Of a stretch of 64,000 nucleotides of DNA, positions 8,088-14,383 are shown piece after piece. Numbering within the stretch: position 1 is the stretch's first letter; each line of letters starts with the position of its first letter. The notes beneath the pieces are model-generated. The model was given only the letters and a program-made list of their open reading frames with translations, searched no databases and was not told the DNA's origin. The translations under genes were made by a program, and so were the position numbers. This stretch comes from Pseudoxanthomonas sp. SL93 (GTDB taxonomy: Bacteria > Pseudomonadota > Gammaproteobacteria > Xanthomonadales > Xanthomonadaceae), in the NCBI RefSeq assembly GCF_026625825.1, contig NZ_CP113065.1:682001-746000 (forward strand). Reading direction: 5' to 3'.

Positions 8088-8148
8088 GGCGTGGTTCCTC
8101 GCTGGTGGAAGGGGGGAGCCGCGCAATGCGGTTCCTCGCCCTCTCTCA

Positions 8149-8164
8149 GGCAAGTCCTGTGCCG
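8149..8164 (-). promoter_or_regulatory. Possible sigma-54 promoter for flgG
   Basis: Minus-strand sequence CGGCAC-AGGAC-TTGCC keeps the -24 GG and -12 GC with the correct N5 spacing, but differs from TGGCAC-N5-TTGCA at the first and last base. It is ~60 bp upstream of flgG and downstream of the foldback element, so it could restore expression of flgG-L if the element blocks read-through. A weak match; inference. Confidence 0.4.
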
Positions 8165-8264
8165 AAACGGATGCCGTAAGTCCGGCGCGGGATCTGGCGG
8201 GCCTCAGGGGATGGCGCGCCCGGCGGCAGGAAATTGGCGCCGGACCGCTTCCAGGCCCCTCTCC

Positions 8265-8340
8265 CTGGACTTCGAGCCCCTCTTCTTGCGGCGACCGATG
8301 GAAGTCACTGAGGGAGCGGGGGGTTGGGGTGAGGGGCAAC
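8265..8340. repeat. Dispersed CCCCTCT...GGTGAGGG repeat, copy 1
   Basis: A short segment (TTCGAGCCCCTC, GCGGCGACCGATGGAAGTC, then GGTGAGGGGCAACG) that closely resembles 13725-13795. Both copies stand ~80-100 bp before a foldback element, in the same relative orientation. In copy 2 the inner part can fold as CCTCTCCC/GGGAGAGG. No open frame of its own is convincing. Confidence 0.6.
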
Positions 8341-8412
8341 GAAGTCCGTTCCAGGTGCGCATCGTCGCTTTGGGGTCTTGAGCCTGGCGAGATGGTTCTT
8401 TTAGTACGCCAG

Positions 8413-8903
8413 CATGGCGCGCTCGCCGCGGGGCCCTACTTTTCTTTGCTTGTGCAAAGAAAAGTAGGCAAAAGAAAGCACACCCCGGCGGTCCGCCCGC
8501 CGCACGCGGCGGGTGCGCAGTCCCGGCGGGAATTTTCGTAAGGGCCATCCTGGCCCATACGAAAACTGCGCACGTCCTGTGCGCCGCCCCGTTGGGGTTT
8601 TACCCGCCGTGACTGCCGGACCTCAGGGGCCCCGAAGCCGTCCGCGAAGCATCGTGAGCGGGCTTGGTTTTTTGCTCTTGCCTTCGGGCCCCCTTGAGGC
8701 ACGGCGAGTGGGCCGGGTAAAACCCGAAGGGCGCCGCCATGGATGGCGGCGTTTTCGTATGGCACAGGGATGTGCCTTACGAAAATTCCCGGACCGCTCG
8801 CGGACCCGGAGCGAAGCGCAGGGCGTGCCGCCTGGGGTGTGCTTTCTTTGCCTACTTTCTTTGCACAAGCAAAGAAAGTAGGGCCCCGCGGCGAGCGCGG
8901 AAG
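8413..8903. repeat. ~490-bp foldback (large inverted repeat) element, copy 1
   Basis: The two halves are imperfect inverted copies of each other, and each carries its own hairpins in mirror order. Outermost is CTACTTTTCTTTGC/GCAAAGAAAAGTAG (14-bp stem, TTGT loop, 8436-8467), mirrored at ~8852-8881 with ACAA loop. Next is TTTTCGTA/TACGAAAA with an inner 6-bp stem (8533-8565), mirrored at 8753-8786. Then a GC hairpin (GCGCAC/GTGCGC), mirrored by GCCGCC/GGCGGC. Innermost is GGGTTTTACCC, mirrored by GGGTAAAACCC. The core ~8637-8690 is not shared with copy 2. It separates flgF from flgG. Open frames across it are low-complexity by-products and are not called as genes. Confidence 0.88.
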
Positions 8904-8956
8904 AATTCCGTGTTGGAAAGCCGACGATTAAGCCTTAGTGGCCTCGGTTGAAGCGA

Positions 8957-9709
8957 TCAACTACCCAACCGCAGCAACTGGTTCGACGACTGCGCCATCT
9001 CGTCGCCGGTGCGGATCACCTTCACCTGCATCTCGAACTGGCGCTGCATCTGGATCATCTGCACCAGCGCACCCGCCGCATCCACGTTGCTGCCTTCCAG
9101 CACGCCCGTGGTCAGGCTGTTGCCCGTAGCCTGCGGGAGCGCCGGAGCCTGCGGATCGGAGGGGCGCATCAGACCGTCGCCGCCGCGTGCCAGCTGCGCC
9201 GGCGTGGCCTGCACCATCCGCATCCGGCCCACGACTGCCATGGTCTGCGGGCCTTCGCCCTGCGGGATGATCGACACCGTGCCGTCGGCCCCGATGTCGA
9301 TGGACTGCGCGGGTGGTACGGCGATGGGGTTTCCATTGTCGTCCAGCACCGCACGGCCGCCGGCGGTGACCAGCTGGCCGTTCGGCGTCACGCTGAGCTC
9401 GCCGTTGCGCGTGTAGGCGGTGCCGCCATCGGCGGCCTGCACGGCCAGCCAGTGGTTGGGCTGCAGCGATACGTCCAGAGATCGCCCGGTGACCATCTGC
9501 GACCCCGTGCGCGAATCGAACCCGGGATCCATCAGCATGGCGTCCACGCGCGATGGGAAACCCTGGCCCGGGATCTTGAACGCCTCGGTGCCCGCCAATG
9601 CCGCCTTGAAGCCCTTGGTGTCCACGTTGGCGAGGTTGTGCGACACCGTGCCCTGCGCCTGGAGCGAAGCGCGGGCACCGGTCATGGCGACGTAGAGGGC
9701 TTTGTCCAT
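8957..9709 (-). CDS. flgF: Flagellar proximal rod protein FlgF
   Basis: 250 residues. Starts MDKALYVAMTGARASLQAQG with NLANVDTKGFKAAL, the FlgF form of the rod signature, and ends in the D0 helix EGSNVDAAGALVQMIQMQRQ followed by FEMQVKVIRTGDEMAQSSNQ. It joins the FlgBC proximal rod to FlgG. Instead of running directly into flgG, it is followed by the foldback repeat. Confidence 0.95.
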   Translation of the reverse strand: MDKALYVAMTGARASLQAQGTVSHNLANVDTKGFKAALAGTEAFKIPGQGFPSRVDAMLMDPGFDSRTGSQMVTGRSLDVSLQPNHWLAVQAADGGTAYTRNGELSVTPNGQLVTAGGRAVLDDNGNPIAVPPAQSIDIGADGTVSIIPQGEGPQTMAVVGRMRMVQATPAQLARGGDGLMRPSDPQAPALPQATGNSLTTGVLEGSNVDAAGALVQMIQMQRQFEMQVKVIRTGDEMAQSSNQLLRLGS

Positions 9710-9807
9710 GGTCTGGTTGATCCGCGATGTGTGAGGGAGGCGTGGTGCAGGGCGATGGGCGACGGGCGACCCTGTGGATGCCCGTCACCGCTGACCGGTC
9801 AGGAGGC

Positions 9808-11028
9808 TTAGCGGATGTTGATGACCGTCTGGGTGATCTGGTCCTGCGTGGACAGCATCTGCGAGTTCGCCTGGAAGTTGCGCTGCGCCACGATCATGTT
9901 GACCAGCTGCTCGGTCAGGTCGACCGTGGAGGCTTCCAGTGCACCCGAGGCCACCTGGCCGAAGTCGGACGTGCCGGGCGCACCGATGCGCGGTTCACCC
10001 GAGGCGAAACTGTGCGTCCAGGTGTTGTTGCCCTGCGACACCAGGCCCTGCGGGTTGGTGAAGTTGGCCAGGCCCACCTGGCCGATGGCGCGGTCCACGC
10101 CGTTCGAATAGCGCGCGTACACCACGCCTTCGGGCGACACGCTGAACTCGTTGAGCTTGCCGGTGGCGTAGCCGTCCTGGTTCTGGATGCGCTTGGCGAA
10201 CTGCTCGCCGTACTGGGTGGTGCCGCTGATGTTCAGCGTCATGTTCAGCACGCCTGCGCCCGTGGTGGGCGTGAACGGGGCCAGCGTCACCAGGCCGTTG
10301 GCCGGTGCGGTCAGCGTGCCGTTGTTGTCGAACTGCACATTGGTCGGCGCACCCATCGACGTGCCGTCCACGTACACGTGCATCTGCCATTCGTTCGGGT
10401 TGGCGGTCTTCACGTAGTACACCGACTGCTGGTGCGAAACGCCGAGCGAATCATAGACATTGACCGAGGTGGTCTCATTGAAGCTGGCGCTGTCATTCGG
10501 CGAGAACGGCGTGATGGTCGGCTGCGCGGCGTTGCCTGGCAGGGTGACGCCCAGGTCCACGTTGGTGGTGGGCGACGGCGGGCTGTCGGTGGTCAGCAGC
10601 TGCAGGTCGACCAGCTGGCCCGTGTCGAAACCCACGTTGTCCGCGCGCGGCGGGAACACCTGCAGGCGGTAGCCGTCGGGCGTGGTCACGAAGCCGTTGG
10701 GGTCGCGCTGGAAGTTGCCGGCGCGCGTGTAGACGTTGGTGCCGTTGTTGCTGACCGTGAAGAAGCCTTCCTGGTCGATCGCCAGGTCCAGGTAGCGGCC
10801 GGTCTGGTTGATGTCGCCCTGCGAGAACTGCTGCGCCACGTTGGTGACGCGCACGCCGGCGCCGATCCCGTTCTGCAGCAGCCCGTAGCCGGTGGTCGAG
10901 AAGACTTCGGCGAACTCGGCGCGCGACTCCTTGAAACCGGTGGTGCCGACGTTGGCGATGTTGTGCGAGGTGACGTTGAGGTCGGCGTTGGCCGCCTTCA
11001 TGCCCGAGAGCGAACTGTTGAAAGCCAT
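9808..11028 (-). CDS. flgE: Flagellar hook protein FlgE
   Basis: 406 residues from the ATG at 11028, which has a strong Shine-Dalgarno sequence (AAGGAG, 6 bp upstream); the open frame upstream of it overlaps flgD in another frame and is rejected. N-terminal MAFNSSLSGMKAANADLNVT with SHNIANVGTTGFKESRAEF and C-terminal STVDLTEQLVNMIVAQRNFQ are hook-protein D0 segments. It polymerises to form the universal joint under FlgD capping. Confidence 0.96.
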   Translation of the reverse strand: MAFNSSLSGMKAANADLNVTSHNIANVGTTGFKESRAEFAEVFSTTGYGLLQNGIGAGVRVTNVAQQFSQGDINQTGRYLDLAIDQEGFFTVSNNGTNVYTRAGNFQRDPNGFVTTPDGYRLQVFPPRADNVGFDTGQLVDLQLLTTDSPPSPTTNVDLGVTLPGNAAQPTITPFSPNDSASFNETTSVNVYDSLGVSHQQSVYYVKTANPNEWQMHVYVDGTSMGAPTNVQFDNNGTLTAPANGLVTLAPFTPTTGAGVLNMTLNISGTTQYGEQFAKRIQNQDGYATGKLNEFSVSPEGVVYARYSNGVDRAIGQVGLANFTNPQGLVSQGNNTWTHSFASGEPRIGAPGTSDFGQVASGALEASTVDLTEQLVNMIVAQRNFQANSQMLSTQDQITQTVINIR

Positions 11029-11071
11029 GAGGTTCTCCTTGCGGTGTGCAGGTGGGAGTGGCGCGGTGGGA

Positions 11072-11752
11072 TCAGGTGGTCGACTTGCCGATGCGCAGCA
11101 CGTAGTCGAGCGGTGCGGTGCCCAGGCCGGGCAGGTTGAGGTAGAGCCCGTCGGAACCGATGGTGACGCTTTCGACGGTGGCATCGACGTAGGTGTTCAG
11201 TTCGGTGCCGGTGCCGTCGCTGGCGACGTGCTGGGCCGTGATCGAGTACGCACCGGCCGGCGCGCGTTCGCCATTGGCTTTCAGGCCGTCCCAGACGTAG
11301 GGCGTTTCACCCTTGCCGGTGGCTTCCACTTCCACCGTGTCCACGACCACGCCGCTGGCGTCCTTGATCTCGAATTTCACCGTGCCGGCGCCCGGCGCCA
11401 TGACCAGGCCGCTGGCGTTGCCGCTGGCGGGCAACGCGATCGTCTTGGACGGCACCAGCACCGAATGCCCGACCAGCGAGGCGCCTTTCAGCACCTGGTC
11501 GCCGGTCAGCGCGGACGTGAAGCCGCCGACGGTGGTGTTGAGGTCGCTGATGCCCTGCACGGTGGAGAACTGCGCCAGCTGGCCGATGAACTCGCTGTTC
11601 GACAGCGGCTTCAATGGGTCCTGGTGCTTCAGCTGTTCGGTCATCAGCCGCATGAAGTCGGCCTGGCCCAGGTTCTCCGGCTTCTTGTTGGTCGGCGTGC
11701 CGGTGGTGGCGGTGTTGATGGCGGCAAACGGGTCGCCGTTGATGGTGGCCAT
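11072..11752 (-). CDS. flgD: Hook-capping protein FlgD
   Basis: 226 residues. The N-terminal export and cap segment holds the FlgD signature NLGQADFMRLMTEQLKHQDP with LKPLSNSEFIGQLAQFS. The C-terminal half has FlgD-type Ig/tudor-like domains (VWDGLKANGERAPAGAYSIT). The cap guides FlgE polymerisation and is later replaced by FlgK. It lies between flgC and flgE, as expected. Confidence 0.95.
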   Translation of the reverse strand: MATINGDPFAAINTATTGTPTNKKPENLGQADFMRLMTEQLKHQDPLKPLSNSEFIGQLAQFSTVQGISDLNTTVGGFTSALTGDQVLKGASLVGHSVLVPSKTIALPASGNASGLVMAPGAGTVKFEIKDASGVVVDTVEVEATGKGETPYVWDGLKANGERAPAGAYSITAQHVASDGTGTELNTYVDATVESVTIGSDGLYLNLPGLGTAPLDYVLRIGKSTT

Positions 11753-11782
11753 GGGGATGCTCGGTCAGGAAAGGGAAGCCGC

Positions 11783-12190
11783 TCAGCGGCCCATCGTCAG
11801 CGTGGCCAGGGCCAGTTCCTTGGCGGTGTTCAGGACTTCGACGCCCGCCTGGTAACCGCGCGAGGCCGAGATCAGGTTGACCATCTGGGCCACGGGGTCC
11901 ACGTCGGGCGCATACACATAGCCATCGCCATCGGCCATCGGGTGGCCGGGCTCGTAGCGCTTGATCGGCGGCGCGTCGCTCTGGGTGATTTCCTTCACCT
12001 GCACCGACGTCAGCGAGCCATCCGCATTCAGTGGCCGTGCCTGGAAGATCGGCTCGATCGGCTTGTACACCGCCTCGGGCGAGGACGCGATGGAATCCGC
12101 GTTGGACAGGTTGCTGGCGATGGTGTTCAACCGCACCGACTGCGCCTGCAGGGCGGAACCGGCCACGTCGAAGATGGGCAGGTTGCTCAT
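11783..12190 (-). CDS. flgC: Flagellar proximal rod protein FlgC
   Basis: 135 residues, the usual size. LPIFDVAGSALQAQSVRLNT with IASNLSNADS is the rod signature, and the conserved FlgC tail VNLISASRGYQAGVEVLNTA is present. It follows flgB by 3 bp. Confidence 0.95.
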   Translation of the reverse strand: MSNLPIFDVAGSALQAQSVRLNTIASNLSNADSIASSPEAVYKPIEPIFQARPLNADGSLTSVQVKEITQSDAPPIKRYEPGHPMADGDGYVYAPDVDPVAQMVNLISASRGYQAGVEVLNTAKELALATLTMGR

Positions 12191-12193
12191 GGC

Positions 12194-12580
12194 TTATTGA
12201 CCCGTGATGGCGGTGAGCATGGTGCGCACCTTGGATTCGATGAAGCTGAGCGAGGCGCGGTATTCCAGCGCCGCGCGACCGTAGGCCGCCCGTTCGGTGT
12301 CGGCATCGACGGTGTTGCCGTCCAGGCTGGGCTGCACGCCGTCGCGCTCGAAGATACGCGGGGAGGCGTCCAGCAGGGTGAGGTGGCGTTCGCTGGTGGT
12401 CTGCAGCGGCGAGGCCTTCAGCGCCGCGCTTTCCAGCGCCGCCTGGAAGTTCAGGTCCTTCGCCTTGTAGTTGGGCGTGTCCGCGTTGGACAGGTTGCTG
12501 GCGATCAGCTGCATGCGCTGCTCGCGCAGCGGCAGGGCCGTCGCATGGACGCCCAGGTAGTTGGAGATGGGATTGGACAT
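12194..12580 (-). CDS. flgB: Flagellar proximal rod protein FlgB
   Basis: 128 residues. The N-terminal NYLGVHATALPLREQRMQLI, then ASNLSNADTPNYKAKDLNFQ, is the typical FlgB opening, and LEYRASLSFIESKVRTMLTA is the C-terminal helix. First gene of the leftward flgBCDEF... operon, with a near-perfect sigma-54 promoter ~40 bp upstream. Confidence 0.95.
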   Translation of the reverse strand: MSNPISNYLGVHATALPLREQRMQLIASNLSNADTPNYKAKDLNFQAALESAALKASPLQTTSERHLTLLDASPRIFERDGVQPSLDGNTVDADTERAAYGRAALEYRASLSFIESKVRTMLTAITGQ

Positions 12581-12613
12581 GGCACCGCTCCGGCAGACCG
12601 TTGCCGGGGATGC

Positions 12614-12629
12614 TGCAAGGCGTGTGCCA
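12614..12629 (-). promoter_or_regulatory. Sigma-54 promoter of flgB
   Basis: Minus strand TGGCAC-ACGCC-TTGCA matches the -24/-12 consensus at every defined base. The predicted start of transcription is ~12602, giving a ~20-nt leader before the flgB ATG at 12580. In this group RpoN acts with FleQ-type activators. Confidence 0.88.
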
Positions 12630-12654
12630 GAACAGGGCGGGGCCCGCGCCGGGG

Positions 12655-12703
12655 CCCGGGATTCGCGCAGCGAATCCTGGGTGTCTTATCGCGTTGCGAT
12701 AGG
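12655..12703 (-). terminator. Double hairpin after cheV (probable terminator)
   Basis: Immediately past the cheV stop are two stems: 12685-12703 (CCTATCGC/GCGATAAG) and 12655-12681 (CCCAGGATTCGC/GCGAATCCCGGG, 12 bp with one G-T pair). There is no T run, so termination efficiency is uncertain. It insulates cheV from the flgB promoter. Confidence 0.5.
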
Positions 12704-12704
12704 A

Positions 12705-13661
12705 CTAGGCCGCCGCCATCTGCGCCGCCACCACCTGGTTCAGGCGGAACAGCACGTGCTCGGCCAGTTCGTGCGGGCTGTACTTGGCCACGAAGGCGTT
12801 CGCGCCCACGCGTTCCACCATGGCGTTGTTGAACACGCCCGACAGCGAGGTATGCAGCAGCACGTAAAGGCCGGCCAGGCCCGGATGGCGCCGGATTTCC
12901 GTCGTCAGCGTGTAGCCGTCCATCGCCGGCATCTCGATGTCCGAGATGACCATGGCGTAGCGCTCGGCCGGATTCTCGCCGGCGGCATGCACCTGCAAGA
13001 GATGGTCCAGTGCCTGCCGTCCATCCGAAAGCAGGGTGGTGGTGACGCCCAACTGCTCCAGCACGCTGCGGATCTGCGAGCGCGCCACGCGCGAGTCGTC
13101 GACCACCAGTACCTGCAGCGGCGGCGAGCCTTCCGGCAAGGCCATTTCCGGCGCCAGGGCGGCATCCATGCGCGTCTGGCAGATGTCGGCCAGCACGCTT
13201 TCCACGTCGATCACCTGGATCAGTTCGCCCTGGAAACGGGTCACGGCGGTCAGGTAGCTGTTGTCCGCGCCCAGTTCCGGCGGCGGGTGGATGTCTTCCA
13301 CGGCGATGTTGACGATGCGCTCCACGCCGCTGACCAGGAAGCCCTGCACGGAGCGGTTGAACTCGGTCACCACCAGGTAATTGGGGGTGTTCTCGGGGTT
13401 GGGGTCGCGTTCGGGGTGGCGGATGCTCAGGCCCAGGTCCAGCACCGGCACCGAACGCCCGCGCACGTCGGCCACGCCGACGAACTCGCTGGGCAGCCCC
13501 GGCAGCTGGAACAGGCTGGGGCGGCGCAGCACTTCCTGCACCTTGAAGACATTGACGCCAAAAAGCTGACGCCCGCCCAGGCGGAACAGGAGCAGGGCGA
13601 GGCGGTTGTGGCCGGCCAGGCGGGTGCGCTGGTCGATACGATTGAGCAGATCCTGGGTCAT
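12705..13661 (-). CDS. cheV: Chemotaxis protein CheV (CheW-REC fusion)
   Basis: 318 residues. An N-terminal CheW domain (~15-165; ALLLFRLGGRQLFGVNVFKV, VADVRGRSVPVLDLG) is joined to a REC domain (~180-310; VLVVDDSRVARSQI, phospho-acceptor Asp in ISDIEMPAMDGYT). CheV couples receptors to CheA and may adapt or dampen signalling through phosphorylation. The ATG at 13661 is preferred over the one at 13691 because the FliA -10 box lies between them. Even so, the predicted transcript starts only a few bases before 13661, so the mRNA may be leaderless. Confidence 0.92.
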   Translation of the reverse strand: MTQDLLNRIDQRTRLAGHNRLALLLFRLGGRQLFGVNVFKVQEVLRRPSLFQLPGLPSEFVGVADVRGRSVPVLDLGLSIRHPERDPNPENTPNYLVVTEFNRSVQGFLVSGVERIVNIAVEDIHPPPELGADNSYLTAVTRFQGELIQVIDVESVLADICQTRMDAALAPEMALPEGSPPLQVLVVDDSRVARSQIRSVLEQLGVTTTLLSDGRQALDHLLQVHAAGENPAERYAMVISDIEMPAMDGYTLTTEIRRHPGLAGLYVLLHTSLSGVFNNAMVERVGANAFVAKYSPHELAEHVLFRLNQVVAAQMAAA

Positions 13662-13668
13662 GCACAGT

Positions 13669-13695
13669 ATATCGGCACGGGGCAGGGGCACTTGA
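13669..13695 (-). promoter_or_regulatory. FliA (sigma-28) promoter of cheV
   Basis: Minus strand TCAAGTGC-N11-GCCGATAT. The -10 box ends 8 bp before the cheV ATG at 13661, putting the transcription start ~2-3 nt from the start codon. Confidence 0.75.
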
Positions 13696-13724
13696 GGCGG
13701 AACCGGATGCCGTTTCCCGCTCTC

Positions 13725-13795
13725 GAGCCCCTCTCCCTACGGCGACCGAAGGAAGTCCTTGTGGGAGAGGTGGCGCGCGGTGAGGGCCAACGGCG
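13725..13795. repeat. Dispersed CCCCTCTCCC...GGGAGAGG repeat, copy 2
   Basis: CTCTCGAGCCCCTCTCCCTA, GCGACCGAAGGAAGTCC and GTGAGGGCCAACG parallel 8265-8340. CCTCTCCC and GGGAGAGG can pair. It again precedes a foldback element by ~90 bp. Confidence 0.6.
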
Positions 13796-13883
13796 TCCGT
13801 CGCGCGTGTGGGCCTTGGAGCGTGTCCATCGGGCGCGCGGTTGTTACACGTTTCTTGGCCTGACGGAAGGGTTGTCGCATACG

Positions 13884-14383
13884 CAGGCATGGCGCGCTCG
13901 CCGCGGGGCCCTACTTTTCTTTGCTTGTGCAAAGAAAAGTAGGCAAAAGAAAGCACACCCCGGCGGTCCGCCCGCCGCACGCGGCGGGTGCGCAGTCCCG
14001 GCGGGAATTTTCGTAAGGGCCATCCTGGCCCATACGAAAACGGCGCACGTCCTGTGCGCCGCCCCGTTGGGGTTTTACCCGCCGTGACTGCCGGACCTCA
14101 GGGGCCCCGAAACTGCGCCGGACACATCCGTACGCCGTGCTTTGCTGTTGCTTTCGCAGTTGCTTTTTGGACCCCTTGAGGCACGGCGAGTGGGCCGGGT
14201 AAAACCCGAAGGGCGCCGCCCTGGATGGGCGGCGTTTTCGTATGGCACAGGGATGTGCCTTACGAAAATTCCCGGCCCGCTCGCGAACCCGGAGCGCGCA
14301 GCGCGGAGGGCGTGCCGCCTGGGGTGTGTTTCTTTGGTCCTTTCTTTGCACAAGCAAAGAAAGGACGCCCCCGCGGCGAGCGG
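13884..14383. repeat. ~500-bp foldback (large inverted repeat) element, copy 2
   Basis: The left arm (13884-14111) is identical to that of copy 1 except for one or two bases in ~220. The core (14112-14175) is unrelated. The right arm resembles copy 1 but drifts toward its outer end. There the terminal hairpin reads TCCTTTCTTTGC/GCAAAGAAAGGA instead of CTACTTTCTTTGC/GCAAAGAAAGTAG, so both sides changed and pairing is kept. It lies between cheV and flgA, which are transcribed away from it, so it can block neither gene. Confidence 0.88.

Follow-up and report, generated by a model that had tools for sequence, protein, structure and literature searches.

A 64,000-nucleotide stretch of Pseudoxanthomonas sp. 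SL93 (contig NZ_CP113065.1, positions 682,001 to 746,000; henceforth the window) contains two copies of a long foldback element, one between flgF and flgG and the other between cheV and flgA. A first-pass annotation of this DNA had reported two foldbacks with near-identical left arms and unrelated cores; the foldbacks were recovered at 8413-8899 and about 13888-14383, while the unrelatedness of the cores did not stand up. Both copies belong to a family of inverted dimers of an old arm of ~220 bp. Each arm combines an A/T-rich triplex motif with two tandem hairpins whose stems change in a compensatory manner and whose loops keep to the pattern CA(N)GGA(N)G. This GGA-loop hairpin pair, missed by the first-pass annotation, is the most conserved part of the element, and its sequence and covariation give good support to the view that the cargo being conserved consists of two hairpins of RsmA/CsrA type. 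The parts of both copies are listed below, numbered from the start of the window; scores refer to model R1, built from the arm alignment described further on.

8413..8899, plus strand: copy 1 (site 0), the complete foldback, located between flgF and flgG.
8436..8478, plus strand: copy 1, left intrastrand-triplex motif, consisting of the hairpin CTACTTTTCTTTGC-TTGT-GCAAAGAAAAGTAG and the third strand CAAAAGAAAG.
8526..8605, minus strand: copy 1, left-arm GGA hairpin pair (R1 module; model R1, 89.2 bits).
8637..8690, no strand: copy 1, core, a fast-evolving spacer resembling the site 1 core of the same genome.
8715..8792, plus strand: copy 1, right-arm GGA hairpin pair (R1 module; model R1, 95.1 bits).
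8732-8751, plus strand: copy 1, right arm, hairpin A, with GGA at 8741-8743.
8752-8785, plus strand: copy 1, right arm, hairpin B, with GGA at 8768-8770.
8843..8878, minus strand: copy 1, right intrastrand-triplex motif.
13888..14383, plus strand: copy 2 (site 3), the complete foldback, located between cheV and flgA, the genes diverging from the element.
13915..13952, plus strand: copy 2, left intrastrand-triplex motif.
14001..14080, minus strand: copy 2, left-arm GGA hairpin pair (model R1, 95.7 bits).
14112..14175, no strand: copy 2, core containing a short tract rich in GTTGC, resembling the cores of sites 4 and 5.
14197..14275, plus strand: copy 2, right-arm GGA hairpin pair (model R1, 101.4 bits).
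14329..14363, minus strand: copy 2, right intrastrand-triplex motif.

Of 224 aligned positions in the left arms (8413-8636 in copy 1, 13888-14111 in copy 2), 223 are identical. In line with the earlier description of an imperfect foldback of mirror-ordered hairpins, both copies fold better than their dinucleotide shuffles (z = -20.0 for copy 1 and -14.5 for copy 2), none of 100 shuffles folding as well as either copy, and the outer hairpin has preserved its stem via paired changes. The CTTTGC..GCAAAG hairpin occurs four times in the window, always within the two copies (shuffled mean, 0.00).

Further copies in the same genome and in relatives indicate a family rather than a local duplication. 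In the SL93 genome (3.85 Mb, one contig) there are six copies with two arms, a half copy and a weak fragment, and the element is matched at an E-value of 0.001 or better in 40 of 61 genomes, SL93 included. In 60 fetched stretches plus the window, 75 copies were delimited. Homology of the flanks on either side places 69 of them in seven groups (15, 14, 13, 10, 7, 5, and 5 copies); among the six ungrouped copies are loci at contig ends and divergent ones. An exact 25-base arm pattern, searched in one genome per species across 84,980 species, gave 25 matches in eight assemblies, all of Pseudoxanthomonas.

Right arms and reverse-complemented left arms align as a single module. Alignment A2 comprises both arms of the 42 copies of set A1 (43 of the 63 parsed copies passed a length filter, and L100, with an error-like left arm, was omitted), that is 84 arms, 76 of them distinct, which were found by BLAST and not by their loops. 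In the two hairpins, 95.6% of cells are paired and 11 pairs show double changes. The number of double-change cells is 220, against 80.4 ± 6.5 after shuffling (0 of 500 shuffles as high), and sliding the partners by one to three columns leaves 35-47% of cells paired (at most 46.5%). Covariation, proposed as a check by the first-pass annotation, clearly exceeds both controls, although the A2 cells are not independent events and part of the signal is one old split between left and right arms. Next to variable neighbours, the loops contain GGA in 84/84 arms for hairpin A and 83/84 for hairpin B, and the longer context CA(N)GGANG is found in 68/84 and 81/84, respectively.

The same features recur in relatives. 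Alignments A3 and A4 hold modules from fetched loci of relatives that were found with R1; because R1 itself rewards GGA and structure, their selection is biased, and A2 is the cleaner set. Loop GGA is present in 45/48 and 46/48 modules of A3 (hairpins A and B) and in 21/21 and 21/21 of A4; CA(N)GGANG is present in 45/48 and 20/21 for hairpin A and in 46/48 and 20/21 for hairpin B. Double changes affect 16 of 26 pairs in A3 and 23 of 26 in A4, with 144 double-change cells versus 38.2 shuffled and 122 versus 29.0, respectively. Within the genus, R1 finds matches in 36 of 38 genomes. Across the order it does so in 93 of 299 genomes, from 30 of 85 genera (in a scan that capped the number of matches per genome), and across the class in 11 of 369, nine of them outside the order.

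Two variants of architecture were seen among these relatives. At L332:1501-1578, from another family of the order, the GGA hairpin pair sits inside a different inverted repeat of ~35 bp, in which no triplex motif was seen by eye. In other genera (L314, L324, L317, L325) the arms are inside-out, with triplex ends central and core ends outside.

The loops resemble known protein-binding RNAs. CsrA recognizes CAGGA(U/A/C)G in CsrB repeats, RUACARGGAUGU after in vitro selection (SELEX), and ANGGAN loops (PMC7652899), and the loop consensus CA(N)GGANG matches that of CsrA/RsmA sites over eight positions. The GGA motifs come in pairs, each in a hairpin loop with this context, as in CsrA/RsmA-binding RNAs. 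At gathering level, Rfam gave no match in the window. The best scores of TwoAYGGAY (RF01731) were 24.9 bits in the window, 29.3 in 18 loci and 40.6 in 20 loci of relatives (L343), so that its gathering score of 43 bits was not reached by any locus tested. With permissive settings, 8 of 23 matches in the 20 relatives' loci overlap the R1 module, and six of these eight belong to the CsrA-RNA clan CL00106 (TwoAYGGAY three times, at 40.6, 36.5, and 30.9 bits, and RsmW, RsmZ, and RsmV); the remaining two are Bacillaceae-1, on the opposite strand, and RAGATH-32.

TwoAYGGAY, a clan CL00106 family predicted to bind CsrA, shares with the element two adjacent hairpins with AYGGAY-type loops, and Infernal places the two hairpins of the element onto those of TwoAYGGAY. 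The element differs in its multicopy inverted dimers, its DNA-triplex motif, its conserved GGGTAAAACCC lead and its score below 43 bits. TwoAYGGAY and the reverse complement of Bacillaceae-1 have been proposed as CsrA binders (PMC4333381), and the former has been classed as a probable RNA in Human gut, γ-Proteobacteria and Clostridiales (PMC2864571). CsrB and RsmX/Y/Z likewise present GGA in hairpin loops (the CsrB repeat being CAGGA(U/C)G; PMC7652899), whereas here each strand of a copy presents only two GGA hairpins, the copies are several and dispersed, the stems are long, and no promoter or GacA control is known. A further precedent is RsmU of Xanthomonas, an RsmA binder outside the standard families and from a related genus; sequenced Xanthomonas genomes are reported there to lack homologues of the known sequestering RNAs, namely CsrB, RsmX/Y/Z and others (PMC7694677).

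Based on the covariation, the conserved loops and this likeness, we tentatively read the element as a multicopy repeat supplying RsmA-binding RNA hairpins, a proposal whose chances we put somewhat short of even. Transcription of the copies would come from adjacent operons; the 3′ half of the RNA would fold into two GGA hairpins about 29 nt apart, and the pair would bind the RsmA/CsrA protein dimer. The family would then form dispersed RsmA-binding sites, acting as a sponge or, in cis, on the host transcript. Owing to the inverted arms, two GGA hairpins would arise from either strand in either orientation. Ectopic conversion together with arm-to-arm template switching would keep the copies alike and shift the palindrome borders. 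The wider proposition, that the palindromic family of Xanthomonadales (and patchily beyond) may be a dispersed, self-homogenizing reservoir of RsmA/CsrA-binding hairpins, that is an inversion-proof sponge encoded by repeats in place of a dedicated sRNA gene, we consider rather doubtful. The SL93 genome has one csrA gene. RsmA regulates globally, and repeats with RsmA-type loops from the order to which Xanthomonas belongs offer a candidate open to direct test.

Several observations weigh against this proposal. All Rfam matches are below cut-off and chance hairpin families elsewhere reached E-values of 0.00027 and 0.005; E-values alone therefore prove nothing, and the weight lies in the concentration of CsrA-type families on the module. 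When the transcript of a complete copy is folded, both hairpins are retained in only 28 of 41 full-length RNA folds (41 of the 42 copies were parsed for this analysis), and in the window copies the long duplex outcompetes at least one hairpin (0.34/0.00 and 0.99/0.04); in favour of the proposal, both hairpins do form in all 41 when the 3′ arm is folded by itself. The stems of the element are long, and very stable stems may hinder CsrA binding (PMC7652899). At 24 lone modules, which are not independent, the upstream gene is co-directional in 15 of the 21 cases where one was called, a count that speaks clearly for neither side.

Base pairing itself points the same way. G-U pairs make up 10/1949, 7/1053, and 7/543 cells (0.51%, 0.66%, and 1.3%), and A-C mismatches are about as frequent (11, 2, and 5 cells). 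Ordinary RNA helices carry clearly more G-U pairs. The G-U tolerance typical of RNA helices, at the level we take to be usual, was not found in these stems.

The outer module adds to this evidence. The outer hairpin followed by a mirror-order third strand (AAAGAAAA, then AAAAGAAA) has the layout of an intrastrand purine triplex of the A/T-rich class (PMC4666352), and judged by sequence the module would qualify as such, a purine strand being mirrored as third strand. Third strand and stem have A-runs of equal length in 117 of 120 modules parsed from the 63 copies. The same is true of 53 of 55 more distant, distinct modules, with run lengths of 3, 4, and 5; by origin these are 26/28 from other Pseudoxanthomonas, 22/22 from other genera of the family and 5/5 from other families. 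The motif is present in 32 of 38 genomes of the genus, with 13 occurrences in SL93, and a reversed control pattern is absent from all 38. Third strand and stem thus co-vary, while purine triplexes cannot form in RNA and are restricted to DNA (PMC4666352). The module shares with the described intrastrand triplex motifs the hairpin with a mirror third strand; those motifs stand alone in that source, whereas here they are fused to GGA hairpins in inverted dimers. A word search of the main text of PMC4666352 gives no mention of Xanthomon- or Stenotrophomonas.

The scarcity of G-U pairs and the DNA-only nature of purine triplexes favour a different view of the arms, namely that they act as single-stranded or extruded DNA. 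The element would then be mobile or recombinogenic, and a DNA enzyme (transposase, recombinase or repair nuclease) would read hairpins and triplex, with the GGA loops as recognition points. We regard this as quite possible, if on balance doubtful. It is consistent with a third strand that almost always equals its stem in A-run length, with the patchy spread over the order and class described above, and with the alternate dimers, L-core-R here and R-middle-L in other genera, as in REP/BIMEs. On the other hand, no transposase link was seen in the 30 RAYT loci scanned, no target duplication was noticed by eye, the sites are common to species and not scattered, and a DNA enzyme alone leaves the match of both loops to CsrA sites over eight positions unexplained. 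If this DNA view is true, the fixed loops and the stems changing by Watson-Crick pairs only are an unusually clear record of structure-driven DNA evolution.

The first-pass annotation had proposed a mobile or structure-selected element; a structured repeat family is confirmed, and mobility is at most putative. No clean target-site duplication was noticed in the intergenic regions read by eye, the sites being too rearranged. With 69 of 75 copies at shared sites, there is no MITE-like scatter over species-specific sites. Inverted ends CATGG(C/T)GC..GC(A/G)CCATG were seen, and a parent element was sought among RAYTs only. Mobilization by RAYT was rejected as a candidate, since 0 of 30 fetched RAYT loci carried a triplex hairpin, BoxC or G-quadruplex motif in a scan with strict patterns within about 1.5 kb that was not exhaustive. 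REP/BIMEs, GTAG REPs with RAYT, and MITEs have in common with the element intergenic palindromic units paired in alternate orientations; the element differs from them in its ~220 bp arms with hypervariable stems and fixed loops, in having no RAYT association in these loci and in that no target duplication was noticed. Element matches in plasmids span only 43-75 bases of the triplex end, mostly in Paraburkholderia/Burkholderia plasmids, and a phage search with a copy from a relative gave no match. Searches of open-access papers, a scope outside which most subscription papers lie, showed no description of the element.

Of 28 genomes with flgG, 15 carry a copy at site 0 (flgF-flgG), namely 15/15 genomes of one clade that includes SL93 (marker genes 89-95% identical) and 0/13 others. 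The copy is full-length in all 15, a point in favour of the RNA reading. Under a single gain on the marker tree, no loss is needed at site 0, against five at site 3, four at site 4, and four at site 5. Copies have been exchanged between sites, and they flip. The element tree does not track sites; with the species tree ignored, the right arm shows a small site effect (0.879 versus 0.865; 2/300 permutations) and the left arm no clear one (64/300 permutations). Relative to the flanking genes, the minimum numbers of flips at sites 0 to 5 are 4, 3, 5, 3, 2, and 2, similar to shuffled labels.

Growth and loss are also seen. At site 4 of genome G015 (L054), a 162-bp flank sequence stands on either side of the element in inverted orientation (96.3% identity), and the corresponding right flank of G000 is only 79.2% identical to it, indicating that the palindrome has grown outward. 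At site 5 of G021 (L173, upstream of transaldolase) a footprint of ~39 bp consists of just two element ends joined. By hand count of lengths, truncated copies number 0/29 at sites 0-1 and 7/35 at sites 2-5 (Fisher p = 0.013, for a grouping made post hoc). Separately, a 28-nt insert, GACCAGCCATTCGGCTGTTGAAGAGCGC or close to it, interrupts the outer hairpin in L051, L054, L074, L081 and others.

These events would also be expected if the element were a relic palindrome without selected function, its symmetry arising from quasi-palindrome template switching and ectopic gene conversion. Outward growth and deletion products fit such a relic, and covariation restricted to Watson-Crick pairs is the expected product of template correction. 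Template switching does not conserve loops, however, and GGA is kept in 167 of 168 arm loops despite varying stems; in the related A4 pairs, where 23 of 26 pairs are compensated, it is kept in 42/42 loops, subject to the selection bias mentioned. The confinement of truncation to sites 2-5 speaks against a relic as well, within the limits of its post hoc grouping. Overall, we hold a functionless relic to be unlikely.

The cores behave as spacers and not as cassettes. The first-pass annotation held that the two window cores share nothing and suggested an exchangeable core; a global alignment of the cores with their edges gives 64.6% identity, against 48.7% on average and 59.7% at most for 200 shuffles of one core. 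Within SL93, each has a nearer relative: the copy 1 core resembles that of site 1 (87.9%), and the copy 2 core those of site 4 (89.1%) and site 5 (81.5%). Among 54 of the 63 parsed copies, cores at the same site in different genomes are as dissimilar as cores at different sites (0.500 versus 0.505; 249/300 permutations as high), whereas similarity is higher among the cores of one genome (0.568; 0/300 permutations reach this value). Cassette-type core exchange is not supported by the core alignments or by this genome effect without a site effect. Instead, the spacer evolves fast, has slippage tracts such as (GTTGCT)n, and is homogenized within genomes. Such hexamer tracts, of widely differing lengths, fill or border the core side of the arms, in the cores of L046 and L054 and on the outer sides of L314, L317, and L325.

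All seven sites of the SL93 genome are intergenic. Site 0 lies between FlgF-FlgG-type genes, site 1 between genes for an AI-2E transporter and a HAD hydrolase, and site 2 between those for a C-N hydrolase and a thioesterase. Site 3 is flanked by genes for a CheW-receiver protein (CheV) and FlgA, site 5 by those for Rnk and transaldolase, and site 6, the half copy, by those for HlyD and an ABC protein. Site 4 lies between recQ and a gene that we take to be Dps-like. On the minus strand at 8146-8170, between copy 1 and flgG, GGCAC-N5-TTGC is presumably a sigma-54-like promoter.

This intergenic placement, the extreme stability of the foldback and the presumed promoter between copy 1 and flgG would suit a boundary element, that is a bidirectional terminator, an RNase III target or an insulator separating transcription units, flgBCDEF and flgG for instance. 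Site 3, though, is flanked by divergent genes, and site 6 sits within what looks like a HlyD-ABC operon; a U-tract terminator architecture was neither sought nor seen, and conserved GGA loops are not required for such a role. A boundary function therefore appears very improbable to us.

Open frames of 109-243 amino acids cross the elements (L048:5041-5772, minus strand; in the window, 8436-8765 minus and 8513-8881 plus), and those running through the elements are probably spurious. Whether the hairpins act as RNA or as DNA, these junk-like intergenic palindromes yielding spurious open reading frames hold a conserved structured unit.

Other repeats lie beside the two copies as an outer layer; both of these repeats failed a strict motif scan:

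8272..8349, plus strand: degenerate BoxC/TM_ECO-like G/C-rich repeat adjoining copy 1 (motif as in PMC4666352).
13723..13800, plus strand: BoxC/TM_ECO-like G/C-rich repeat adjoining copy 2 (motif as in PMC4666352).

They resemble the BoxC/TM_ECO repeats described in that source. In the cheV-flgA gap of four genomes without the element (G029, G020, G023, G021), a foldback built from the BoxC/TM_ECO-like repeat was observed by eye. The flgF-flgG gaps of the outgroup (L121-L124) contain inverted runs of a GGGAATC-type heptamer, similar to the G-quadruplex repeat described for Xanthomonas (PMC4692102).

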